From: Bacteroidales bacterium
GTDB lineage: Bacteria > Bacteroidota > Bacteroidia > Bacteroidales > JAGONC01
DNA length: 41,819 nucleotides
Assembly (NCBI GenBank): GCA_028716265.1
Contig: JAQUQD010000020.1
Span: forward strand, 1-41,819
Direction: 5' to 3'
A model generated the notes under the pieces. That model made no database searches and had not been told where the DNA came from. It saw only the letters and a list, made by a program, of their open reading frames with translations. Positions 1 through 11,958 of the stretch are shown piece by piece; positions within the stretch are counted from its first letter, which is position 1; every line of letters starts with the position of its first letter. Made by a program: the position numbers and the translations under genes.

Positions 1-1069
1 CGAACGCCACACTGGTGGCGCTGATCCCATGCAGGCGGTCGGTGGCCCAGAAGCCCAGGATCAGGACAAAGAGGATCACGGATTTGACCTCCTGGAAACT
101 GAGCTTTCCCATGCTTTTATATTCCTGTCTGAGCCGCTCCATCCCGCCTGCGATCTGCGGCCTGCGCTCTTCAGGTTTGAGCGGGAAAAAGACTTTCATC
201 GCAAGGAGATATCCTATCAGCATCAATCCGATCATCACCGGGAACTGGGCCATCATCCAGTCGGTAAAATAGATCTTCCCGCCAATGGCTCCCCCGATGA
301 TGGCTACCGCCAGCAGGTTCGCACCTGAACCGGTCATAAAGGCCCCAGCTCCCAGGTTGATCTGCAGCAGGTTCTGCAAAACAATGCTCCGCCCGAAGTT
401 GGTCTTTCCGTTATCCCGGTGCGCGCCATAAATGGCGGCAATCACCATAAATATGGGCAGCAGGATCGCTGCTTTGGCTGTGGTCGCTGAAATGAAAGCA
501 GACAGCACCACGTTGATCACCAGGAAACTCAGAAACACCGATCCAGCTGTTTTCCCGAACCGCAACAGGAACCACAGCGCAAATCGCTTGGCAATTCCTG
601 TCTTGACCAGCATGCTGGCCAGAACGAACGACATGATGTTGAGCCACATGACCGGATGACCCAACTGGGCCAGCGCTTCTTTCTCGGGTAGAACATTGCA
701 GAGGATCAGGCTGATAATGACCAGCAGGGAGGTCAGGTAGTTGGGAATGGCATCCGTGAGCCACAACAGGATGCTGGCGGCAAAGATCGCCAGCATCAGG
801 TGATTGCTCCTGGAAAAAGCGATCGGCCCCAGCTTCTCAAAAGCTTTTTTTGCTTCCTCTGAGATCAATCCCGCCGGATCAATGTCGGTCAGAAAGGGCA
901 GATGGGTAAAGAAACCAAATACAATGAAGGCGATGAGCGCCAGGGGCGGACCCAGGATCGCAAGCCACTTCTCAAATTTCGATTTCTCCCTTTTCGGGAG
1001 CTTTTCGATGCGGTACTGGTGCATGTCCAGCGGATCATACGCAGCCTGACGGGGCTTGTTGTCTTCCAT
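1..1069 (-). CDS. SLC13/DASS family anion:sodium symporter (partial, runs off the left edge)
   Basis: Reverse-strand translation from ATG at 1069 (MEDNKPRQAAYDPLDMHQYRIEKLPKREKSKFEKWLAILGPPLALIAFIVFGFF...) is open to the window edge. Many hydrophobic helices, and DASS-like segments such as ...SFVLASMLVKTGIAKRFA... and ...GSGANLLAVAIIGG... Confidence 0.82.
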   Translation of the reverse strand, partial: MEDNKPRQAAYDPLDMHQYRIEKLPKREKSKFEKWLAILGPPLALIAFIVFGFFTHLPFLTDIDPAGLISEEAKKAFEKLGPIAFSRSNHLMLAIFAASILLWLTDAIPNYLTSLLVIISLILCNVLPEKEALAQLGHPVMWLNIMSFVLASMLVKTGIAKRFALWFLLRFGKTAGSVFLSFLVINVVLSAFISATTAKAAILLPIFMVIAAIYGAHRDNGKTNFGRSIVLQNLLQINLGAGAFMTGSGANLLAVAIIGGAIGGKIYFTDWMMAQFPVMIGLMLIGYLLAMKVFFPLKPEERRPQIAGGMERLRQEYKSMGKLSFQEVKSVILFVLILGFWATDRLHGISATSVAF

Positions 1070-1092: not shown

Positions 1093-1560
1093 CTACCAGG
1101 TTGTAAAAGGATGCTTCATGAGGATGACATTATAATATCGGACATCTCCTGTGACCTCTTCCCCCAGCCAGCCAGGCTTTTCGAAGGATTCCTGCTCCGA
1201 CGGCAACTCGATCTCCGCCAATACCAGCCCCTGGTTTTCGCCATAAAATTCATCCACTTCAAAGGTGAATTTCCCGGCCGGGACCAGGTACCTGGTCTTA
1301 TCAATCACACCGGGCTCGCATATCTTCAGCAGCTCTTCCACTTCTGACACAGGGATCTCCTTTTCCCATTCATACCGGCTGGCACCGGAAGCGTTGCCGA
1401 TCCCCTTGACCGTAATATAACCCTTGTCTCCCTTGATCCTGACCCGTACAGCCCGTTCGGGGACGGACGACAGATACCCCTGGGTGATCCGGGTTGCTTT
1501 TATACTAAAAGGTTTGAAATCACCCTTTACCAGAAATTTACGTTCGATTTCCTGTGCCAT
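1093..1560 (-). CDS. CYTH domain protein (triphosphate tunnel metalloenzyme family)
   Basis: N-terminal MAQEIERKFLV (ExExK signature), then VRVRIKGDKGYITVKG and AEIELPSE, typical of CYTH/TTM proteins. Confidence 0.9.
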   Translation of the reverse strand: MAQEIERKFLVKGDFKPFSIKATRITQGYLSSVPERAVRVRIKGDKGYITVKGIGNASGASRYEWEKEIPVSEVEELLKICEPGVIDKTRYLVPAGKFTFEVDEFYGENQGLVLAEIELPSEQESFEKPGWLGEEVTGDVRYYNVILMKHPFTTW

Positions 1561-1563
1561 TTT

Positions 1564-2211
1564 TCAAATATTTTCGTTTGCCAGTGGTTTATTGATCATG
1601 CCGATCACACGCTTGATGGCCTGAAGGTAATTGATATTTTCAATCCCTTGAAGGCCAATATCCTGGATCGTTTTTTTAATATCCTCTATTTCTGTGGATT
1701 CTGAATTAACGGTGACCACCCTGGCACCATTGATCAGTACAATGCCATACTCACAAATGGTATCATTCACCATGTAGCCGTATCGTTTTTTACACACCCG
1801 CACCGCCTGCAGATCAGGGTGGCTGCGGATCATGGCCATAAATTCATCGTACGTATATTCTGGTTTTATCAGGTCTGGCATCTTTACCTGGAAGGCAGGA
1901 AAAACCTCGCCGGCAAGCATTTCTGCTTTCATAGGGAATTCTCCTTTCATCAGGGGATCCCATAGCTCCAGGCCCTCCAGCGTGTGCACATATGTTTTGA
2001 TATCCATCTTCCCGTCGCGGATCTTGGTGTTGTTGATATCGTTGATCCGCGACATGATGTAGATCTCCTCCGAATAGCGTTCCCAGACTTTTTCAGGAAT
2101 GGGCACCGAGAGACGGGCCATCCGCTTCCAGGCATTGTCAAAATTCTGTCCGAACGACCGGAATTCATACCTTGGTTTGGTCGCCTGTCCGACTACCAGC
2201 TTTTCTGCCAT
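1564..2211 (-). CDS. Conserved hypothetical protein, possibly divergent CYTH-like
   Basis: 215-aa ORF directly upstream of the CYTH gene (4 bp gap). EEIYIMS...KIRDGKMDIKTY and VVTVNSESTEIED recall alternating charged beta-strands of CYTH folds. Family assignment is tentative. Confidence 0.6.
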   Translation of the reverse strand: MAEKLVVGQATKPRYEFRSFGQNFDNAWKRMARLSVPIPEKVWERYSEEIYIMSRINDINNTKIRDGKMDIKTYVHTLEGLELWDPLMKGEFPMKAEMLAGEVFPAFQVKMPDLIKPEYTYDEFMAMIRSHPDLQAVRVCKKRYGYMVNDTICEYGIVLINGARVVTVNSESTEIEDIKKTIQDIGLQGIENINYLQAIKRVIGMINKPLANENI

Positions 2212-2385: not shown

Positions 2386-4824
2386 TTACGGCATATTGGC
2401 CGTTCCCCGCGTAATGGTGTTCAGCAGCTGCCAGGTATCGGAGCCATCGGGTAGCCTTCCGTATGACTGTGTGGTTTCCATGGCCGGTATGGCGATATTG
2501 TCGATCACGGTGCCACTGGTATCTTCCAGCCATACTTCATCGCCGCCGCTGGAGAGGCCGAATCCGCTGGGATCGTCATCATCCACCACGATCACCAGCC
2601 AGCCCATTGCAGGTACGATGCTCCCTGCCGGGAATTCCTTTTTGGGCTTGCTGCCTGACTGTCCGCCCGGATCATAGATCTTATACCCGCTGATATCAAG
2701 CTCGACCGGGGAGGCATTATAGATCTCCACCCAGTCGGGATCGCCTGTCACACCGCGGGAATAGAGTTCGTTCACCACAACCCCTCCCGGCACGGCATTG
2801 CTGTTGGCTGTTCCTTTTGTTATAGTGAAGAGTATCTGCCAGTTATCGGTACCATCCGGATACCGGCCATAGGATTGTGTTTCCTCCAGGGCAGGGAAGG
2901 TAACGCTGTCGATTACCGTACCGTCGGCATTTTCCAGCCATACCTGTTCGCCGCCACTCGAAAGCCCGAACCCGCTCTCGGCTTCATCGTCGGTCACGAT
3001 CACATAGAATCCCCCGGTGGGAATGACGGTACCTGCCGGAAATTCCTTCTTCGGCTTGGTACCTTCCAGACCACCACTGTCGTAGATCTTGTATCCGGAA
3101 AGGTCGATATCCTTATCTGAATCATTGAAGATCTCGATCCAGTCAGGATTCTCCGATGTACCCCTTGAATAGAGCTCATTCATCCAGATCAGGACCACAT
3201 CAGGGATCACATTGCTGTTGGCCGCTCCTTTTGTAACTGTATAAAGCATCTGCCAGTTTTCGGCGCCATCCGGATAACGGCCGTACGACTGCCCTGCCTC
3301 CAGGGCGGGGAAAGTGACATCGTCGATGACCGTTCCGTCGGCATTTTCCAGCCATACCTGTTCTCCGCCGCTGGAGAGTCCGAATCCGCTTTCCGCCTCA
3401 TCATCGGTCACGATCACAAAGAATCCTTTGGATTGGATGGTGGTGCCTGCGGGGAACTCCTTCTTGGGCTTGGTGCCTGCCTGGCCGCCGCTGTCGTAGA
3501 TCTTGTACCCGGAGAGGTCAACGTCGGCATCCGAATCATTGAACACTTCTATCCAGTCGGGATCCTCGGTCGTACCCTGCGAATAGAGCTCATTCATTAC
3601 GATCCTTATCTGGGGGGGTGGGGTATTATCGTTGGCAGCGCCTTTGGTCACGACATAGAATGCCTGGAAGGTAGAAGCTCCGTCAGGATAACGTCCGTAG
3701 GATTCGTTTTCTTTCAGTGCTGGAAAGACACAATTGTCGATGACATTTCCGGAAGGGTTTTCCAGCCAGATCTCTTCGCCGTCGCTGGAGAGACCAAAAC
3801 CACTGGCATCGGCGTCATCCGTGACGATGACAACGAAGCCGTGGGCTGTAATGGTGGTCCCGGCAGGGAATTCTTTTTTGGGCTTTGAACCCGATTGTCC
3901 TCCGCTGTCATAGATCTTATACCCGCTGATGTCGGCATCGAATGCAGAGGCATTATAGATTTCGACCCAGTCGGGATCCTCTGTTGAGCCCTGGGAGAAT
4001 ACTTCATTGATAAAAAGGGTGGGAGCAGGCACTTCACTGCTGTTCGCAGTACCGCGGGTGATGGTGTTCACGATCTGCCAGGTGGGCGATCCGTCGGGAA
4101 TGCGGGCCCATGACTGAGTGGGTTCAAATCCGGGGAAGGCGATGTTATCAATGACCGATCCACTGGCATTTTCAAACCACACCTCATCACCACTGGAGGA
4201 AAGTCCGAAACCTGCCTCGCCTCCTACATCCACCACGATCACGTAGAATCCTTTCGGAGGTACAATGGTTCCTGAAGGAAACTCCAGCTTCTGCTTGGTA
4301 CCTGATTGTCCACCCGGATCATAGATCTTATAACCAGTCAGATCAGCAGGACTGTCAGAGTTATTGTAGATCTCGATCCAGTCAGGATCCTCCGGAACGC
4401 CTCGTGAGTAGATCTCATTCATCAGAATGGAAGGTGCACCAACGGTATAACTTGCAGCTGATGCAGGTGCACCGGCCGGGTTGGTCGCCTTTTTCCCTGC
4501 ATTGGATTCAGCTTCGATGTAATATTGTACCTGAACATCACTGGCTTGTGCCGGGATCTGTCCGGAATACGTGCTGCCGGAGGCTGTCATGGCCACACTG
4601 GTAAAACTGCCTGTACCTGCTTTATAAAAGAGGATTACAGCCTTAATGCCATCATTGCTGGTCACCTTCGCCGTGACCGTTACAACATCATTATCTCCCG
4701 GAGCCAGGGGGCTCATCGACATATTGGTGATCACCGGAGGCCCTTCGAAAATTTCATCCTTTACACAGCCGGTAATGAAAAGCGCAGCTATGAAGAACAT
4801 CATGACAAAATATCGTGTTTTCAT
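2386..4824 (-). CDS. Lipoprotein with five tandem lamin-tail (LTD) domains
   Basis: Signal/lipobox MKTRYFVMMFFIAALFITGC; five copies of NE(I/V/L)(Y/F)S(R/Q)G...DPDWIEI(Y/F)N...GYKIYD.GGQ.G.KPKKEFPAGT...GFGLSS.G(D/E)EVWLEN. Confidence 0.88.
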   Translation of the reverse strand: MKTRYFVMMFFIAALFITGCVKDEIFEGPPVITNMSMSPLAPGDNDVVTVTAKVTSNDGIKAVILFYKAGTGSFTSVAMTASGSTYSGQIPAQASDVQVQYYIEAESNAGKKATNPAGAPASAASYTVGAPSILMNEIYSRGVPEDPDWIEIYNNSDSPADLTGYKIYDPGGQSGTKQKLEFPSGTIVPPKGFYVIVVDVGGEAGFGLSSSGDEVWFENASGSVIDNIAFPGFEPTQSWARIPDGSPTWQIVNTITRGTANSSEVPAPTLFINEVFSQGSTEDPDWVEIYNASAFDADISGYKIYDSGGQSGSKPKKEFPAGTTITAHGFVVIVTDDADASGFGLSSDGEEIWLENPSGNVIDNCVFPALKENESYGRYPDGASTFQAFYVVTKGAANDNTPPPQIRIVMNELYSQGTTEDPDWIEVFNDSDADVDLSGYKIYDSGGQAGTKPKKEFPAGTTIQSKGFFVIVTDDEAESGFGLSSGGEQVWLENADGTVIDDVTFPALEAGQSYGRYPDGAENWQMLYTVTKGAANSNVIPDVVLIWMNELYSRGTSENPDWIEIFNDSDKDIDLSGYKIYDSGGLEGTKPKKEFPAGTVIPTGGFYVIVTDDEAESGFGLSSGGEQVWLENADGTVIDSVTFPALEETQSYGRYPDGTDNWQILFTITKGTANSNAVPGGVVVNELYSRGVTGDPDWVEIYNASPVELDISGYKIYDPGGQSGSKPKKEFPAGSIVPAMGWLVIVVDDDDPSGFGLSSGGDEVWLEDTSGTVIDNIAIPAMETTQSYGRLPDGSDTWQLLNTITRGTANMP

Positions 4825-4854: not shown

Positions 4855-6438
4855 TTAAAAATCGATTTCAAACCTTACCGTGACCATGTGGTAGTTTTCC
4901 CCTGCTTTGCCTGCTGCCTCCACAACCTGCTTTGGATCTTTGGTCAGGTTACCGTCGGCGTCATAGCCCACATACAGCTTGCCTTTTCCGTTGGCATACC
5001 GGTCGTGATTCAAATAGGCATAGTTGAACATCATTTTCACATTGTTGGTGATATAATAATTCAACCCCAGCGTATAGCCTTCACCGGCGCCTCCCATAAG
5101 CTTTTCCATTCCACTGTTCAGGCTGAGGTAATCATAACGAAGTGCAAGCTCGATGTCGCCCCATTTCTTGCCCCGGCTTACCTGGGTGAATTCTCCGTCG
5201 TCCGGATTGTAGTTGTATTTTCCCCCGAAGATCAGCCAGCTGCCAAAAACATAAAATCCGTCAAAATAATGGTTCACTCCCTTAACGGTATCGTCCACAC
5301 CGCTTAGCAGATATTCTCCCTGGATTCTCAGTCCTTTATGGTATGCGGCCAGCTCCAGTCCGCCCAGTGTCGCATGGTCGATGGGTCCCACCAGGTCGGT
5401 GTCGATGTATTTTTTCCGGTTGATGCTGGTGAGGGAACGGGTGCTGTAGCGAAGGGTTCCCACAACTTCGGCATCCGTTTTGGGCGTGCGGTACGATCCG
5501 GAAACTCCCAGGTGCAAACCCTTGTCCGGGTCATCAGGGAACCCCATAAACACTACCCTTCCTGTCAGGGAGTATCCTTCGTCCATGCCATAGTCTTTGT
5601 TGTTGTCTTCCGAGAATATTCTTTCCTCCAAGTCACCGACATTCTGGAAAAAGATACCTCCCTGGAGAAGTAACCACTTGTAATGATACGTGGCACCCAG
5701 TCCGATATGCCGTGACGGAGCGAAGGCGTTAACCGCCATGGGACGCTCGATGAAGGTCAGGTATCGGGAGGTGGTGGTCCTTTCCATGGAATAATATTCT
5801 TTAAAGTTACCTGCCCGCAGGGAAACTCCTTTATTGAAGGTGTACTCGAGGTAGGCATCTTTCAATTCCAGTTCGGAGTTGCTAATATCCATATCGAATT
5901 CACCATACCAGTGCTTACCGATCTGGGCCTTGGCACCCAGACGTGCCCTGCGGATGGAGTAACCGTTTCCGATCGGATTCATCACATCTCCAAAGAACCA
6001 TGCCCCGTCGGCCTGGACACGGAAGTCGAACCAGAAACGGTAATCGTTCTTATAGCTCTCAAATACCAGGATCCCATTCCGTTCTTCGGCGAACAACGGA
6101 TTGCGGTTCACACGGACACCATACTGATTGTAACGGACATTATAGATCATCATGACATCCGTTACGGTTTTACCACTGAGTCCAATCTCAATCTTTTCGT
6201 GATCGGGATGGGTAAAAACGAGTACATCCGATGAGGCTGCGCTTACCTGAATGGAGTACATCCCGTTTTCATTGGTCAGAACGGAAGCATCGGTTCCCTT
6301 GAGGCTGACCGTGGCCTCTTTAACGGGCTCCTGCCCAATGTTCGAGGTGACCTTACCAGTCACAGTGCGTACCTGTGCACTCACATGAAGGCCACCCATG
6401 AAGGTCAGCAGGATGAGAAAGAAATAAAACTTTTTCAT
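4855..6438 (-). CDS. Outer-membrane porin, Porin O/P (phosphate-selective) type, with N-terminal carboxypeptidase-regulatory-like domain
   Basis: Signal peptide, N-terminal VTGKVTSNIGQEPVKEATVSLKGTDASVLTNENGMYSI domain, then beta-barrel text with ARLGAKAQIGKHWYGEFDMDISNSELELKDAYLEYTFNKGVSLRAGNFKEYYSMER, typical of Porin O/P; adjacent to Pit. Confidence 0.8.
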   Translation of the reverse strand: MKKFYFFLILLTFMGGLHVSAQVRTVTGKVTSNIGQEPVKEATVSLKGTDASVLTNENGMYSIQVSAASSDVLVFTHPDHEKIEIGLSGKTVTDVMMIYNVRYNQYGVRVNRNPLFAEERNGILVFESYKNDYRFWFDFRVQADGAWFFGDVMNPIGNGYSIRRARLGAKAQIGKHWYGEFDMDISNSELELKDAYLEYTFNKGVSLRAGNFKEYYSMERTTTSRYLTFIERPMAVNAFAPSRHIGLGATYHYKWLLLQGGIFFQNVGDLEERIFSEDNNKDYGMDEGYSLTGRVVFMGFPDDPDKGLHLGVSGSYRTPKTDAEVVGTLRYSTRSLTSINRKKYIDTDLVGPIDHATLGGLELAAYHKGLRIQGEYLLSGVDDTVKGVNHYFDGFYVFGSWLIFGGKYNYNPDDGEFTQVSRGKKWGDIELALRYDYLSLNSGMEKLMGGAGEGYTLGLNYYITNNVKMMFNYAYLNHDRYANGKGKLYVGYDADGNLTKDPKQVVEAAGKAGENYHMVTVRFEIDF

Positions 6439-6488
6439 AATTTAACAGATTTAATTAATAATTAGATGTTAGTCATTTCTATTTGGCT

Positions 6489-7523
6489 TTAAAGGTTATT
6501 GATGAACTGTGCCAGGTTATCGTCCTGTTGCAGGTTGAGTTTCTTCTTCAGCCGGTAACGCGCTACTTCAACGCTTTTGGGTGAGATGTTCAGAAGGGTG
6601 GCGATTTCCTTGGTTGATAAATTCAACCGGATGAGCATGGCCAGGTGTTTTTCCTGCAGGGTCAAATGAGGGAAGCCTGCAGTGAGTTTCATCTGGAAAT
6701 CCTTGTGGACCTGCTCGATCTGGCTGTAGAAATTTTCTTTTTCGGTCGTAAAACTCATCCTTTGCCTGATTCTGGCAGAAAGCTGTCTGAAAAGCAACTC
6801 AGCCTCCGTCCGGTCGCTTGCTTTAGTTATCCGGTCGATCTCATCCAGGATCTGTTCCAGGAATGTTCTCTGTTCCGAGAGGTTCAACGCGATATCGATG
6901 AATTCTTTCCTTTTGTTTTCAAGTCTTGCATTCAGTTCGTCCTTTTGCAGCTGGATGGTCTTGACCTCCATTTCGTGCAGTGATTGCCTGACGATATAAT
7001 TCTGGTTTTGCTGAACCAGGAGTTCGTTGGTGGTCTTCCAGCGAAGCTTTTGCTGACGAAAGACGATGAGGATAAGCGAAAGAACAATGACTGCCAGCAG
7101 GATCAGCAATCCATAAACGACCATGTCGATGGTTCTCGCCGGCAGGGAGGCCTCACCAGGATCGTCCGGAACAGGGACACCTTTTGTGATCTGAAGGTCG
7201 AACACGTTTTGCATGAAAAAAAGCATGAAAAATGTCAGAATTCCGGCGATGACGGGTGTGGCGATCCACCCTATGGCCACTCCACCCAATGCTTTTAATT
7301 TTATTTCACGGACTCCTTTTACAAGCCCGATCCCCAGAATGGATCCGATGACCACCTGGGTGCTTGAAACCGGTACCAGTGGTAATGGAGGTAGTCCCGT
7401 TTTTGCAACCAGCTCCGAGAATGTTGAGGATGAAAATAAAAACAGGACCAGGGCCTGGGCAAGCACGATGACGATCGCTGCTTCCGGGTTGAGCGATAGA
7501 ATATCGTTGCCAATGGTTTGCAT
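6489..7523 (-). CDS. C-terminal half of Pit inorganic phosphate transporter fused to a coiled coil and LuxR-type HTH (separated from the upstream half by one in-frame TAA)
   Basis: PLPLVPVSSTQVVIGSILGIGLVKGVREIKLKALGGVAIGWIATP (Pit C-terminal half); TM; helical linker; C-terminal LTLQEKHLAMLIRLNLSTKEIATLLNISPKSVEVARYRLKKKLNL (LuxR/GerE-like HTH). Confidence 0.82.
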   Translation of the reverse strand: MQTIGNDILSLNPEAAIVIVLAQALVLFLFSSSTFSELVAKTGLPPLPLVPVSSTQVVIGSILGIGLVKGVREIKLKALGGVAIGWIATPVIAGILTFFMLFFMQNVFDLQITKGVPVPDDPGEASLPARTIDMVVYGLLILLAVIVLSLILIVFRQQKLRWKTTNELLVQQNQNYIVRQSLHEMEVKTIQLQKDELNARLENKRKEFIDIALNLSEQRTFLEQILDEIDRITKASDRTEAELLFRQLSARIRQRMSFTTEKENFYSQIEQVHKDFQMKLTAGFPHLTLQEKHLAMLIRLNLSTKEIATLLNISPKSVEVARYRLKKKLNLQQDDNLAQFINNL

Positions 7524-7529
7524 GACACG

Positions 7530-8222
7530 TTATCCGTACGTAAAGATGCCAACAGCGATGGAAATTCCTCCGAGCAGGAACAGGAGCTGGACCCCGTCGA
7601 GCCGGTAGATCCCAAAATCAAGAACGATATTGGGCGCACTGCTGACAAACACACCCATGACATTGGCAATGTTGTTCGCCCCGAGGCTGTAGGCTCCAAA
7701 TGCTCCCACCAGGATCAGTGCCGTGCGTATATATGAATCGAGTTTGATCACATGGATCTTTGCCTTACGCAACGCCCACTTTAACAAAAGGTACAAGCCT
7801 GCTGCGAACAGCATCCCCAGAACAGGTCCGCTGATCCACGTAATGACTATTTTGCGGAGCACCACCAGGTCGGTGTTATGGCCGGTAAACAGGGTCCAGC
7901 CGATGATGGCCCCCACGATTGCCTGGCTTGTGGATACGGGCAGACGGCGCTTTGTCATGACAAAGACCGTCAAAGCAGCACATAGCGTGACTGTGAAGCT
8001 TCCCCCCAGTGCATCCACGGTGCCCAGTTCGTTGAGGGTTTCAGCTCCTCCTTTGCCCTGGAAGACAGCCCCTAGGATCACAAACGTGCTGGCGATGATC
8101 GCAGCACGTCTAAAACTGAGCATACGGGACCCGACGGCAGATCCGAAAATATTCGCAGCGTCGTTTGCTCCCAGTGACCACCCCAGGAATAATCCGCTGG
8201 ATATGAAGATGAGCAGGAGCAT
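7530..8222 (-). CDS. N-terminal half of Pit inorganic phosphate transporter
   Basis: ATG at 8222: MLLLIFISSGLFLGWSLGANDAANIFGSAVGSRM... with GANDAAN and SLGANNIANVMG signatures of PF01384-type transporters. Ends FTYG*; the ORF track extends the start to 8306. Confidence 0.82.
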   Translation of the reverse strand: MLLLIFISSGLFLGWSLGANDAANIFGSAVGSRMLSFRRAAIIASTFVILGAVFQGKGGAETLNELGTVDALGGSFTVTLCAALTVFVMTKRRLPVSTSQAIVGAIIGWTLFTGHNTDLVVLRKIVITWISGPVLGMLFAAGLYLLLKWALRKAKIHVIKLDSYIRTALILVGAFGAYSLGANNIANVMGVFVSSAPNIVLDFGIYRLDGVQLLFLLGGISIAVGIFTYG

Positions 8223-8232
8223 CGCACAGGGA

Positions 8233-8880
8233 TTATAAAGACCTCTTGATTGCCATGATGTTGAGCAGGTCGGCAGCCCGCTGGGCTTCATCCGAAAGAC
8301 TTTCAATATGCAGGGTGAAGTACCTCAGGTGAAACTTTTCACTCAGCTTCAGACCTTGCATATCATGAAAAACCCTGCGTTTGATGCTATCCGCCATCTT
8401 ATCCACTTCTTTTTCATATAAATACACCCTATGTAGATTTTCTTTTATGGAATCGGGATCACGAAAGTAGGATCGGGCTGCAGGTATGACCGATTCAACC
8501 GCCGAAATGGAAAGATCGGTCAGCTTGATGAGATCCTGGTTGAGTTCGGCAGGTATGAAGGGCACTTCCACATCGAACTGGAACAGGTTGTGCTTGGCCA
8601 GGTCAATGATGGTATCCAGCTCTTCGAGCAACCGCATGATGTCTCCCCTGAGCTGAGGCATGAGCGATTGCGTATACAGCGTGTTTTCGATTTTTTTACG
8701 GATGATGTCCGCCTCATTCTCAAGATTGGAAATTGTTTTCAGGTTATCCTGGAAGCTTTCATGGTTGCCGCTCAAATAATTCCTGACTCCTTCCTTGAAA
8801 ATCAGATTGCCCTCATCCACTTTATCCAGAAACTGGTCGATCTGCTTGATCGATTTATTGGCATGCTTGAAAGAGAACAT
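8233..8880 (-). CDS. DUF47 / PhoU-like phosphate transport regulator
   Basis: All-helical 215-aa protein directly upstream of Pit, same strand. KISNLENEADIIRKKIENTLYTQ, IMRLLEELDTIIDLAKH and LYEKEVDKMADSIKRRVF are typical of DUF47. Confidence 0.87.
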   Translation of the reverse strand: MFSFKHANKSIKQIDQFLDKVDEGNLIFKEGVRNYLSGNHESFQDNLKTISNLENEADIIRKKIENTLYTQSLMPQLRGDIMRLLEELDTIIDLAKHNLFQFDVEVPFIPAELNQDLIKLTDLSISAVESVIPAARSYFRDPDSIKENLHRVYLYEKEVDKMADSIKRRVFHDMQGLKLSEKFHLRYFTLHIESLSDEAQRAADLLNIMAIKRSL

Positions 8881-9113
8881 AACAGATGCTTAAATTTGAC
8901 AGTCAAAGATACAGGAAATAGTTGATGGGTTGTAATACCGTCATTAGGATAATAATATCTGTTAAGTGTCATTGTAGGGGAATAATAACATGTAAAAAAT
9001 TATAAATCAATATTTTATAAATTGTTCGTTATGCAGTTGATGATTCGGCCACAGGGATCAGTTGAGTTTTGTAGGGCTCTTGTAGGGGCTGTCGGGAAAG
9101 GAGAGAGGAGAAA

Positions 9114-10025: not shown

Positions 10026-10730
10026 ATGAGTAAAAAATTTAAAATAAATACAGTCAGCGGTCAGCAACTTGTCTTGAGGAATCCCGACCTGGTCATGATG
10101 ATGAAGGATCGGCCTAATGCACCCCACCCCTGCAGGGGGGTAATTCCTCTATTAAGCCCTGTTTTAAATAGCAAAATTTGTTGTCAGAAATTTGATATAT
10201 TCTTCTTTGCTTTCACCTACCGGGCATTCGTACCGGCAGAGGATCTGAAACAAAAATTCGCCTACAAGGATTTTGAGAAAGCAACGAAATGCAGGCAGTG
10301 CCACACGGGATTTTATGAACAATGGACGCAGGCGATGATGTCGCAGGCCTACACGCACCACTGGGATGAAATTGAGTATTTCGAACTGGCTGTTGCCCAG
10401 GCAGAAAAGGTCCCTGCGATCAAGGAAGTGGTGGATGGATGCAATGGTTGCCGCATGCCCTACTTCGATCCGGACGGGAACATGACCATCATGCAGTGGA
10501 ATACAGCCAAACAGGGAGTCGACTACCGTATCAGTCCCAGGGAGACCAAAATGGAGACCTTCACATTTCAAATTCCATTCAATGCCGCACCCGGGGAAAT
10601 GCGGGTCACAGCCACGCTAAACTATCAGCTCCTGGTCAAACCGGTAGCCGACCTGTTGAACGTTCCTGCGGAAGAGTCGGAGATACGGCTTGTGAACAGC
10701 CACTCTACGCACTTCACCGTTCTGCCGTGA
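10026..10730 (+). pseudogene. Remnant of a multiheme c-type cytochrome; credible homology begins only after about 10200
   Basis: CRQCH heme site followed by HWDEIEYFELAVAQA and a second site reading CNGCR instead of CxxCH, jumping directly to a C-terminal MQWNTAKQGVDYRI...LNYQLLVKPVADLL region. The first ~60 codons lie over a repeat-like intergenic element. Confidence 0.55.
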
Positions 10731-10757
10731 TTTTTTAATATCCATAAACCACATATC

Positions 10758-11177
10758 ATGAAAAAGACAAACGCTATTCTTTTAAGCGGATTGGCACTGA
10801 TGATCATCGTCCTTGTGCCGGCTAAGCCTTTGAAAGCCATCCCTTCTTTTGCCCGCAAGTACCAGTTCAGTTGCCAGGTGTGCCATGCCCCCGCCATGCC
10901 AAGGCTGAAAGCCTACGGGGATGATTTTGCCGGAGCAGGTTTCCGTCTGACTGACACGGAAGCCCCACGGTATTTTGTTCCGGTGGGGGATGATAAGCTT
11001 TCACTGCTGAGAGTAGTTCCGCTGGCACTGAGGTTCGAGGGTTTTCTTTCCTATAACTACTCCGATGAGAAAACCGCCGACTTTGGCGTTCCCTGGGGGG
11101 CTCAAACTGCTTTCAGGAGGAGAGATTTCCAAAAAACTGTCCTATTACTTCTATTTTTTCATGGGAGAGAGGCGTGA
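10758..11177 (+). pseudogene. Cytochrome-associated outer-membrane protein, N-terminal part with CxxCH (frameshifted near 11095-11100)
   Basis: Signal peptide then FARKYQFSCQVCHAPAMPRLKAYGDDFAGAGFRL. Reading continues as homologous-looking protein only to ...DFGVPWG, then the +1-shifted frame (11065-11958) takes over. Confidence 0.7.
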
Positions 11178-11958
11178 AGTGGCAGGCATCGAAGATGCAT
11201 TCATCATGTACCACGACCTTTTCAGAAGTGGGATCAATGTTTCCTTCGGTCAGTTCCAGGCATGCGATCCGCTTTACAAAAGGGAATTACGGTATACACT
11301 GGAAGACTATTTGATCTACACTATCAAACCGGGGAACTCATCCATTTCGCTCAAATACGAAAGGGGACTGTTATTTGATTACGGTCTGAAGACAGGAACG
11401 GATTTCGTCCTGGAAATAGTGAATGGGAACGGGATCGGTCCTGCTGGTGAAGGGTATTTGTTTGATATTGACAAATACAAAAATTTCCTGCTGAAGATAT
11501 CACAATCAGCCGGGAAGTACGCCAGTGTGGGATTTTTTGGTTACCTTGGTAAAGAAGCGCTGAAAGATGTCACTTCCATGACCAACAGCATGTACATGTT
11601 CGGGCCCAATCTTACCCTTGATTTCAATGAAAAGTTCATTCTGAACGCACAGTATCTTTACCGCAATGATTCGAGGGTTGTTGTAGAAACTGACGCCATC
11701 GCCGTACAGGAGGATGTGGTGACGCAGGGCGGATTTGCAGAGCTTATTTTTTCGCCCAGGGGGGACCGTAGCGACTGGTATCTTACAGCGCTTTTCAACT
11801 GGGTGGATTCGGATCTGGATTACCTCGACTACACCTCCGCTACGTTGCATGCGGGGTACCTGTTACGTCGCAACATACGGCTGGTGGGAGAGTATTCACA
11901 GGGATTCACCGGTGAAGAGTTCGGGAAGGCGAGTGTGGGATTTGTGGCCGCGTTTTGA
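11065..11958 (+). pseudogene. C-terminal beta-barrel part of the same frameshifted outer-membrane protein
   Basis: Coherent OMP-like sequence LKLLSGGEISKKLSYYFYFFMGERREVAGIEDAFIMYHDLF... to C-terminal ...KASVGFVAAF. Removing one G from the G6 run at 11095-11100 joins the two frames. Confidence 0.7.

Follow-up and report, generated by a model that had tools for sequence, protein, structure and literature searches.

A Pit-type transporter core joined to a LuxR/GerE helix-turn-helix: a candidate membrane regulator of its own operon in Bacteroidales

Can a phosphate transporter be joined to a DNA-binding domain and, if so, which genes would the hybrid protein control? The question is raised by a Bacteroidales contig of 41,819 nucleotides (hereafter the window, meaning the whole stretch of DNA analysed), in which one reading frame on the reverse strand, 8222-6489(-), encodes a Pit (PF01384) core, an extra transmembrane (TM) helix, a coiled coil and a LuxR/GerE-type helix-turn-helix (HTH). 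The features of this gene are as follows:

7530..8222, reverse strand: N-terminal part of the Pit core, 230 aa, up to an in-frame TAA
7530..7532, reverse strand: the in-frame TAA, where congeners read CAA or CAG (Gln)
6489..7523, reverse strand: C-terminal part, 344 aa, with the end of the Pit core, the extra TM helix, the coiled coil and the LuxR/GerE HTH
7053..7124, reverse strand: extra TM helix behind the Pit core, residues ~367-390 of the read-through protein, with the basic stretch RQQKLRWK next to it
6507..6665, reverse strand: LuxR/GerE HTH (PF00196), residues 287-339 of the C-terminal ORF (Pfam)

The residue numbers of the extra TM helix are taken from the homologue L036, with which the read-through protein of the window aligns without gaps. 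Pfam searches recognised the PHO4 domain in both halves of the window gene (121.5 and 81.8 bits) and in L036 (217.6 bits; cut-off 33.7). The GerE domain scored 29.9 bits in the window, 23.7 in L036, which is barely above the cut-off of 23.5, and 32.2 in the divergent homologue L061; these scores rule out a chance HTH. Residues K549, S550 and RYRL 555-558 of the HTH are invariant. No histidine kinase domain was found in Pfam scans of the fusion proteins, which therefore do not belong to the transporter-histidine kinase class, although they may act in a comparable way. The original prediction, made from the sequence of the window, had named a Pit transporter, a TM segment, a helical linker and a LuxR/GerE HTH, and all four lie where it placed them, with PHO4 and GerE above cut-off. 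It had also considered that the HTH might prove non-significant or that homologues might consist of a transporter and a separate regulator gene; the GerE match is significant, homologues hold the HTH inside one ORF, and those lacking the HTH represent another state of the same family. By proposing to model 8222-6489 read through, it hinted at the same-frame fusion, but it passed over the stop codon in the window copy.

The ORF at 7523-6489 is in the same frame as that at 8222-7530, and its ATG at 7523 directly follows the TAA. Intact single ORFs of 577 and 578 aa are present in two congeners, and the position of the TAA holds a glutamine codon, CAA in L004 and CAG in L005. The shared frame and the intact congener genes rule out two unrelated genes. 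Substitutions between the window and L004 over the Pit core are mostly synonymous on either side of the stop. Since window-specific amino-acid changes do not rise downstream of it, the stop is, as judged from these substitutions, either recent or an assembly error. The fusion is thus real and conserved, yet interrupted in the window assembly: the TM and DNA-binding domains lie on one polypeptide in the congeners and in many other families, and the window copy lacks this arrangement owing to the TAA. As assembled, the gene is split by the stop codon in the genome of the window and may not be functional. For this copy alone, a recent pseudogene, or two polypeptides produced by re-initiation, would account for the data in place of an assembly error. 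We put this at slightly below even odds: the in-frame TAA has an ATG close behind it and two nearby genes are likewise damaged relative to a congener, but both halves appear constrained on the window lineage and the assembly consists of 166 contigs, so that an assembly or consensus error is possible. This reading has no bearing against the fusion family. The two damaged genes adjoin each other (10203-10730 and 10737-11955) and encode a CxxCH-containing and an outer-membrane-like protein, broken by a missing middle and a frameshift; their counterparts in congener L111 (9562-10950 and 10954-12180) are intact. Their damage fits either view of the stop, recent or assembly error.

Where would the HTH lie relative to the membrane? 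Hydrophobicity and basic-residue counts placed K/R-rich loops at residues 148-163, 302-318 and after 386 (L036 numbering). From this distribution, the HTH is predicted to be cytosolic and the Pit core to end outside; the chain would therefore need the added TM helix to bring the HTH inside. HTH-less relatives either end near the start of the extra TM helix or have a soluble tail there without that helix. In L095-L103, relatives of the window Pit within the phylum, the C-terminal tail is ~150 aa long and soluble, the extra TM helix is absent and the tail is probably periplasmic. In an AlphaFold2 model (pLDDT 78), a kind of check that had been proposed, one continuous helix spans residues 367-467 and the HTH end is helical; its only significant PDB match was the Pit transporter TmPiT (6l85; Foldseek E 4.6e-13, TMt 0.67).

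We then asked how widespread the fusion is. Among the first 60 relatives it was confined to the genus of the window, and a scan of genome contigs had likewise pointed to a genus-restricted fusion; this was overturned by an order-wide scan. When 295 genomes of the order were searched with a profile, 13 full-length fusions were retrieved, the window's genus included. Two more, L051 and L052, were added from longer frames, having the HTH behind longer linkers, while in L050 the contig ends before the HTH. L061 is a divergent fusion, and searching its family added L131, L132 and L133. Outside the order, one fusion (L063) was found in 395 genomes of the class, and no further one in 396 genomes of the phylum, where related HTH-less Pits do occur. 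The fusion thus occurs in 12 families of the order, with one representative in another order; the genomes were drawn evenly from larger groups, and the counts are not a census. One of the relatives, L033, is a Lentimicrobiaceae metagenome-assembled genome. HTH-less relatives within the order include L054-L057, L059, L060 and L062, and two proteins, L049 and L053, have the extra TM helix and no HTH. No full-length relative was found in a plasmid search. Among the open-licence papers searched, none was found to describe a Pit-HTH fusion.

In a tree of the Pit core, a clade of 13 including the window is well supported, and five long-linker or divergent fusions are intermixed with HTH-less Pits. 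An initial core tree that included degenerate and small Pits was distorted by long branches. In a tree of the HTH module, four of these five fusions, those tested, group with other regulators. Based on the mixing in the core tree and this placement in the module tree, it is possible that the fusion arose twice. A second Pit encoded in the genome of the window (L001/L220; G000, contig C47, 22236-23135) is short and has the canonical motifs; its gene lies downstream of one for ~230 aa. G119 and G137 encode separate proteins related to Pit (L161 and L162), which show the motifs GGSGTAPA and PQSTSQS and may carry a different oxyanion.

In order to shed light on the role of the fusion, we analysed its genomic context. 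In the window it is the second gene of an operon in the order DUF47, Pit-HTH fusion, Porin_O_P, lamin-tail domain (LTD) protein, 215-aa protein, CYTH, SLC13, whose other members are:

8233..8880, reverse strand: DUF47/PhoU_div protein (PF01865), first gene of the operon (78.9 bits, cut-off 24.4)
4855..6438, reverse strand: Porin_O_P (PF07396) outer-membrane porin with an N-terminal carboxypeptidase-regulatory-like domain (Pfam)
2386..4824, reverse strand: protein with five lamin-tail domains (PF00932)
1564..2211, reverse strand: conserved 215-aa protein without a Pfam or NCBIfam match
1093..1560, reverse strand: CYTH-domain protein (PF01928)
2..1069, reverse strand: SLC13/DASS-type symporter (PF00939), continuing past the end of the window

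The order is maintained between families with minor variations, as far as contigs extend, and Porin_O_P adjoins the fusion gene in most loci where the sequence reaches that far. The suggestion that DUF47 upstream and Porin_O_P downstream are meaningful neighbours is borne out by this conservation. The exception is L124, in which different genes surround the DUF47 and fusion genes. HTH-less Pits occur in similar settings: L127 has DUF47, Pit, porin, LTD protein and 215-aa protein, and L128 and L129 have DUF47 and Pit with CYTH close by. The 215-aa protein (homologues include L112, L115, L116 and L125) is near-constant in the operon, at ~70-95% identity, and some versions of the operon contain an extra beta-propeller protein with SdiA-regulated and phytase-like matches (L120:2473-3267).

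The fusion subfamily retains GAND in repeat 1 of the Pit core, has GANN in repeat 2 and carries STSQ/SSTQ in place of STTH. The change from His to Gln affects both STTH-type motifs and is also seen in most HTH-less relatives. There is a weak match to the sulfate permease CysP, at 87.5 bits below the cut-off of 400. Because the repeat-2 Asp and the STTH His are replaced, and given the resemblance to CysP, even phosphate is uncertain as the ligand. The Pit motifs are otherwise intact in most fusions, partly degenerate in L047 (GSKDTVN) and lost in L061, L131 and L132, which lack GAND, GANNIAN and PVSTSQ and retain the core helices, the HTH, DUF47 and the porin. PF01384 has no match in L061 and a weak one in L131. 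Between these two proteins the HTH is 92% identical and the core 52%, and divergence of the degenerate core is 0.32 at codon positions 1+2 vs 0.75 at fourfold sites. The model of L061 also matches TmPiT (E 2.9e-5, TMt 0.62), intact homologues being present in its alignment. A further Pit is encoded in every genome with a degenerate core, namely L139 (G226), L140 (G1043) and a protein of 771 aa (G1042, where Pst is present as well). In the HTH-module tree, the degenerate trio is joined by L133, whose fusion is intact and which belongs to their family (90/90), and all four fall within the clade of the window (100/100). From this nesting, decay of the core most likely came after the fusion, and loss of the motifs with the regulator retained suggests a nutrient transporter turned gene switch.

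If the HTH binds DNA, the promoter of its own operon is a candidate target, and the region above DUF47 contains the following elements:

8904..8911, reverse strand: TATCTTTG, the Bacteroidetes-type -7 element (TAnnTTTG) of the operon, 31 nt ahead of the DUF47 ATG
8972..8979, reverse strand: CCCTACAA, proximal candidate operator, its CCTACA beginning 67 nt above the -7 box
9069..9076, reverse strand: CCCTACAA, second (upstream) candidate operator, 97 bp above the proximal one
9080..9087, reverse strand: CCCTACAA, third copy, 11 bp above the second (direct reading and motif scan)

The -7 box was identified by TAnnTTTG, the Bacteroidetes-type -7 promoter consensus, and in most fusion loci it lies ~30 nt ahead of the DUF47 start. 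Upstream of the box, the motif C[CT][CA]TACA[AT] (CYMTACAW) recurs near -67 and again ~97 bp higher, with others near -123 and -175. An exact [CT][CA]TACA at -70 to -63 of the -7 box was found in 12 of 19 HTH loci, against 0.36 expected from shuffles. The 96-98 bp spacing was counted 8 times in 18 loci, with a maximum of 1 in 500 shuffled sets, and recurs between families. At least two sites within 250 bp are present in 17 of 21 HTH-bearing promoters (15 of 18 intact and 2 of 3 degenerate), compared with 0 of 19 HTH-less Pit promoters and 4 of 158 further upstream windows taken from the same loci. The p-value of 7e-8 overstates independence, as the loci are related and the motif was first spotted by eye in the counted loci; as safeguards we used shuffles, loci without the HTH, other promoters and three loci that had been held out. 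Of the last, L225 and L226 each have at least two sites, and the 96 bases available for L227 contain one. These motif statistics are guides, the operon promoters being AT-rich (70% vs 59-62% in controls). A variant array with sites ~55 bp apart is found in the G137 family and reappears in held-out loci; in degenerate-core loci the candidate sites are displaced in position.

Of the regions suggested beforehand as targets of the HTH, 6439-6488 contains no site, and 8880-8960 came close, since it holds the -7 box and the sites follow at 8972-9087. The sites are direct, with no obvious palindrome, which counts against binding by the HTH; such an arrangement is atypical for NarL-like binding. An inverted repeat was rejected as operator of the window promoter, where only AT-rich repeats occur and none is shared with L033. 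No comparable array was found at the pst and second-Pit promoters examined, including the promoter region of L001/L220, and the CYMTACAW array is absent from L127, the similar operon without an HTH. A general Pho box was rejected as the operator, the array being absent from the pst promoters examined. Across the genome of the window, CTACAW-N57-63-TAnnTTTG occurs once, at the window promoter, compared with 12 for the reversed control; several other genomes gave numbers near or below their controls, so that no regulon is defined in them. The available excerpts of the B. fragilis PhoB literature report binding of PhoB to the pstC promoter and contain no Pho-box sequence.

We propose, with a probability of about 60%, that the family is a one-component membrane autoregulator derived from a Pit transporter and acting on its own operon. 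The added TM helix would lead the chain from the periplasm into the cytosol, and the long helix running into the coiled coil would serve dimerisation and signal relay. The HTH would then most likely bind, from the membrane, the CYMTACAW array above its own promoter and regulate the DUF47, Pit-HTH fusion, porin, LTD, CYTH and SLC13 operon, probably by activation, since the candidate sites lie upstream of the promoter. The signal passed to the HTH would be whether the Pit core has ligand bound or which conformation it adopts, the ligand being putatively phosphate or another oxyanion, and DUF47 perhaps participates. More tentatively, and with somewhat less than an even chance, the protein may be an oxyanion (probably phosphate) transceptor, in which occupancy or transport state sets DNA binding by the HTH and the motif-losing descendants are sensors only.

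The HTH could also regulate the operon with the Pit core as a mere anchor or dimerisation scaffold, or as an uncoupled transporter, the signal coming from DUF47 or from membrane location. That DUF47 always adjoins the fusion and is retained with degenerate cores speaks for this, as does the retention of those cores; dimerisation through the added TM helix and coiled coil may not need the core, and many other N-terminal parts in the phylum are joined to the same TM-coiled-coil-HTH module. A bare anchor would be expected to shrink, though, and in the degenerate core the modelled arrangement of helices is preserved and sequence constraint persists (52% identity; 0.32 vs 0.75), while most fusions have intact Pit motifs; we regard this reading as unlikely. 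Less probable still is an ordinary Pit transporter whose HTH tail is vestigial or does not bind DNA, the array belonging to another regulator such as PhoB. HTH-less relatives exist, two of them (L049 and L053) with the extra TM helix left, and two of the window sites are 11 bp apart, which resembles Pho-box spacing. Against it, few parts are as well conserved between degenerate relatives as the HTH, which has the invariant residues noted above, the array tracks the HTH (17/21 vs 0/19, and none in the HTH-less L127 operon), and the pst promoters examined have no comparable array. The autoregulator is thus favoured by the array that tracks the HTH, the loss of Pit motifs with the HTH retained, and the topology.

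If correct, this suggests a phosphate-type response in Bacteroidales apart from PhoBR. Similar operons carry intact, HTH-less and motif-dead versions, and a candidate operator has been defined; this series makes the path from transporter to receptor testable, with operon expression as a simple read-out.

How does the fusion compare with known systems? Its core fold, PF01384 match and DUF47 partner are those of Pit/SLC20 proteins, TmPiT and DUF47-Pit pairs, and it differs from TmPiT in the added TM helix, coiled coil and HTH and in having repeat-2 GANN and STSQ/SSTQ rather than GAND and STTH. The C-terminal ~200 residues are the same kind of module as in other Bacteroidota TM-coiled-coil-HTH regulators (weak NCBIfam match BT3442_fam), whose sensor part is not a Pit core. 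The fusion is, like the TTRs (ToxR/CadC type), a membrane-held one-component regulator; TTRs are described as widespread and enriched in Bacteroidota, and transporter-family sensor cores go unmentioned for them in the available portion of the main text (PMC10269533). Closer in layout are DadR, HcdR and CadR of Coriobacteriia, which the available parts of their description present as 10-12-TM LuxR-type activators that begin with a polytopic membrane part, end in a LuxR HTH (PF00196) and are encoded near the genes that they control (PMC9734109). By genetics, DadR activates in response to its substrate; in the same parts of the text the TM domains are given by helix count and signal relay is speculated (PMC9734109). 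Unlike these proteins, the fusion occurs in Bacteroidota beside DUF47 and a porin, and its membrane part can be recognised as a Pit by the signature motifs and is extended by an added TM helix and a coiled coil. Signalling transporters have been described as rare among bacteria, and those transporter fusions that we identified, CbrA (an SLC5-STAC-HK transceptor; PMC13022988) and Ks-Amt5 (Amt-HK; PMC5764959), act via kinases. They share with the fusion a transporter-family membrane core and a cytosolic signalling output on one protein, and Ks-Amt5 gained sensing and lost transport (PMC5764959), a course that the degenerate Pit cores suggest as well. Whereas their output is a kinase, the Pit-HTH fusion couples a recognisable transporter straight to a DNA-binding domain, with neither kinase nor receiver between them.
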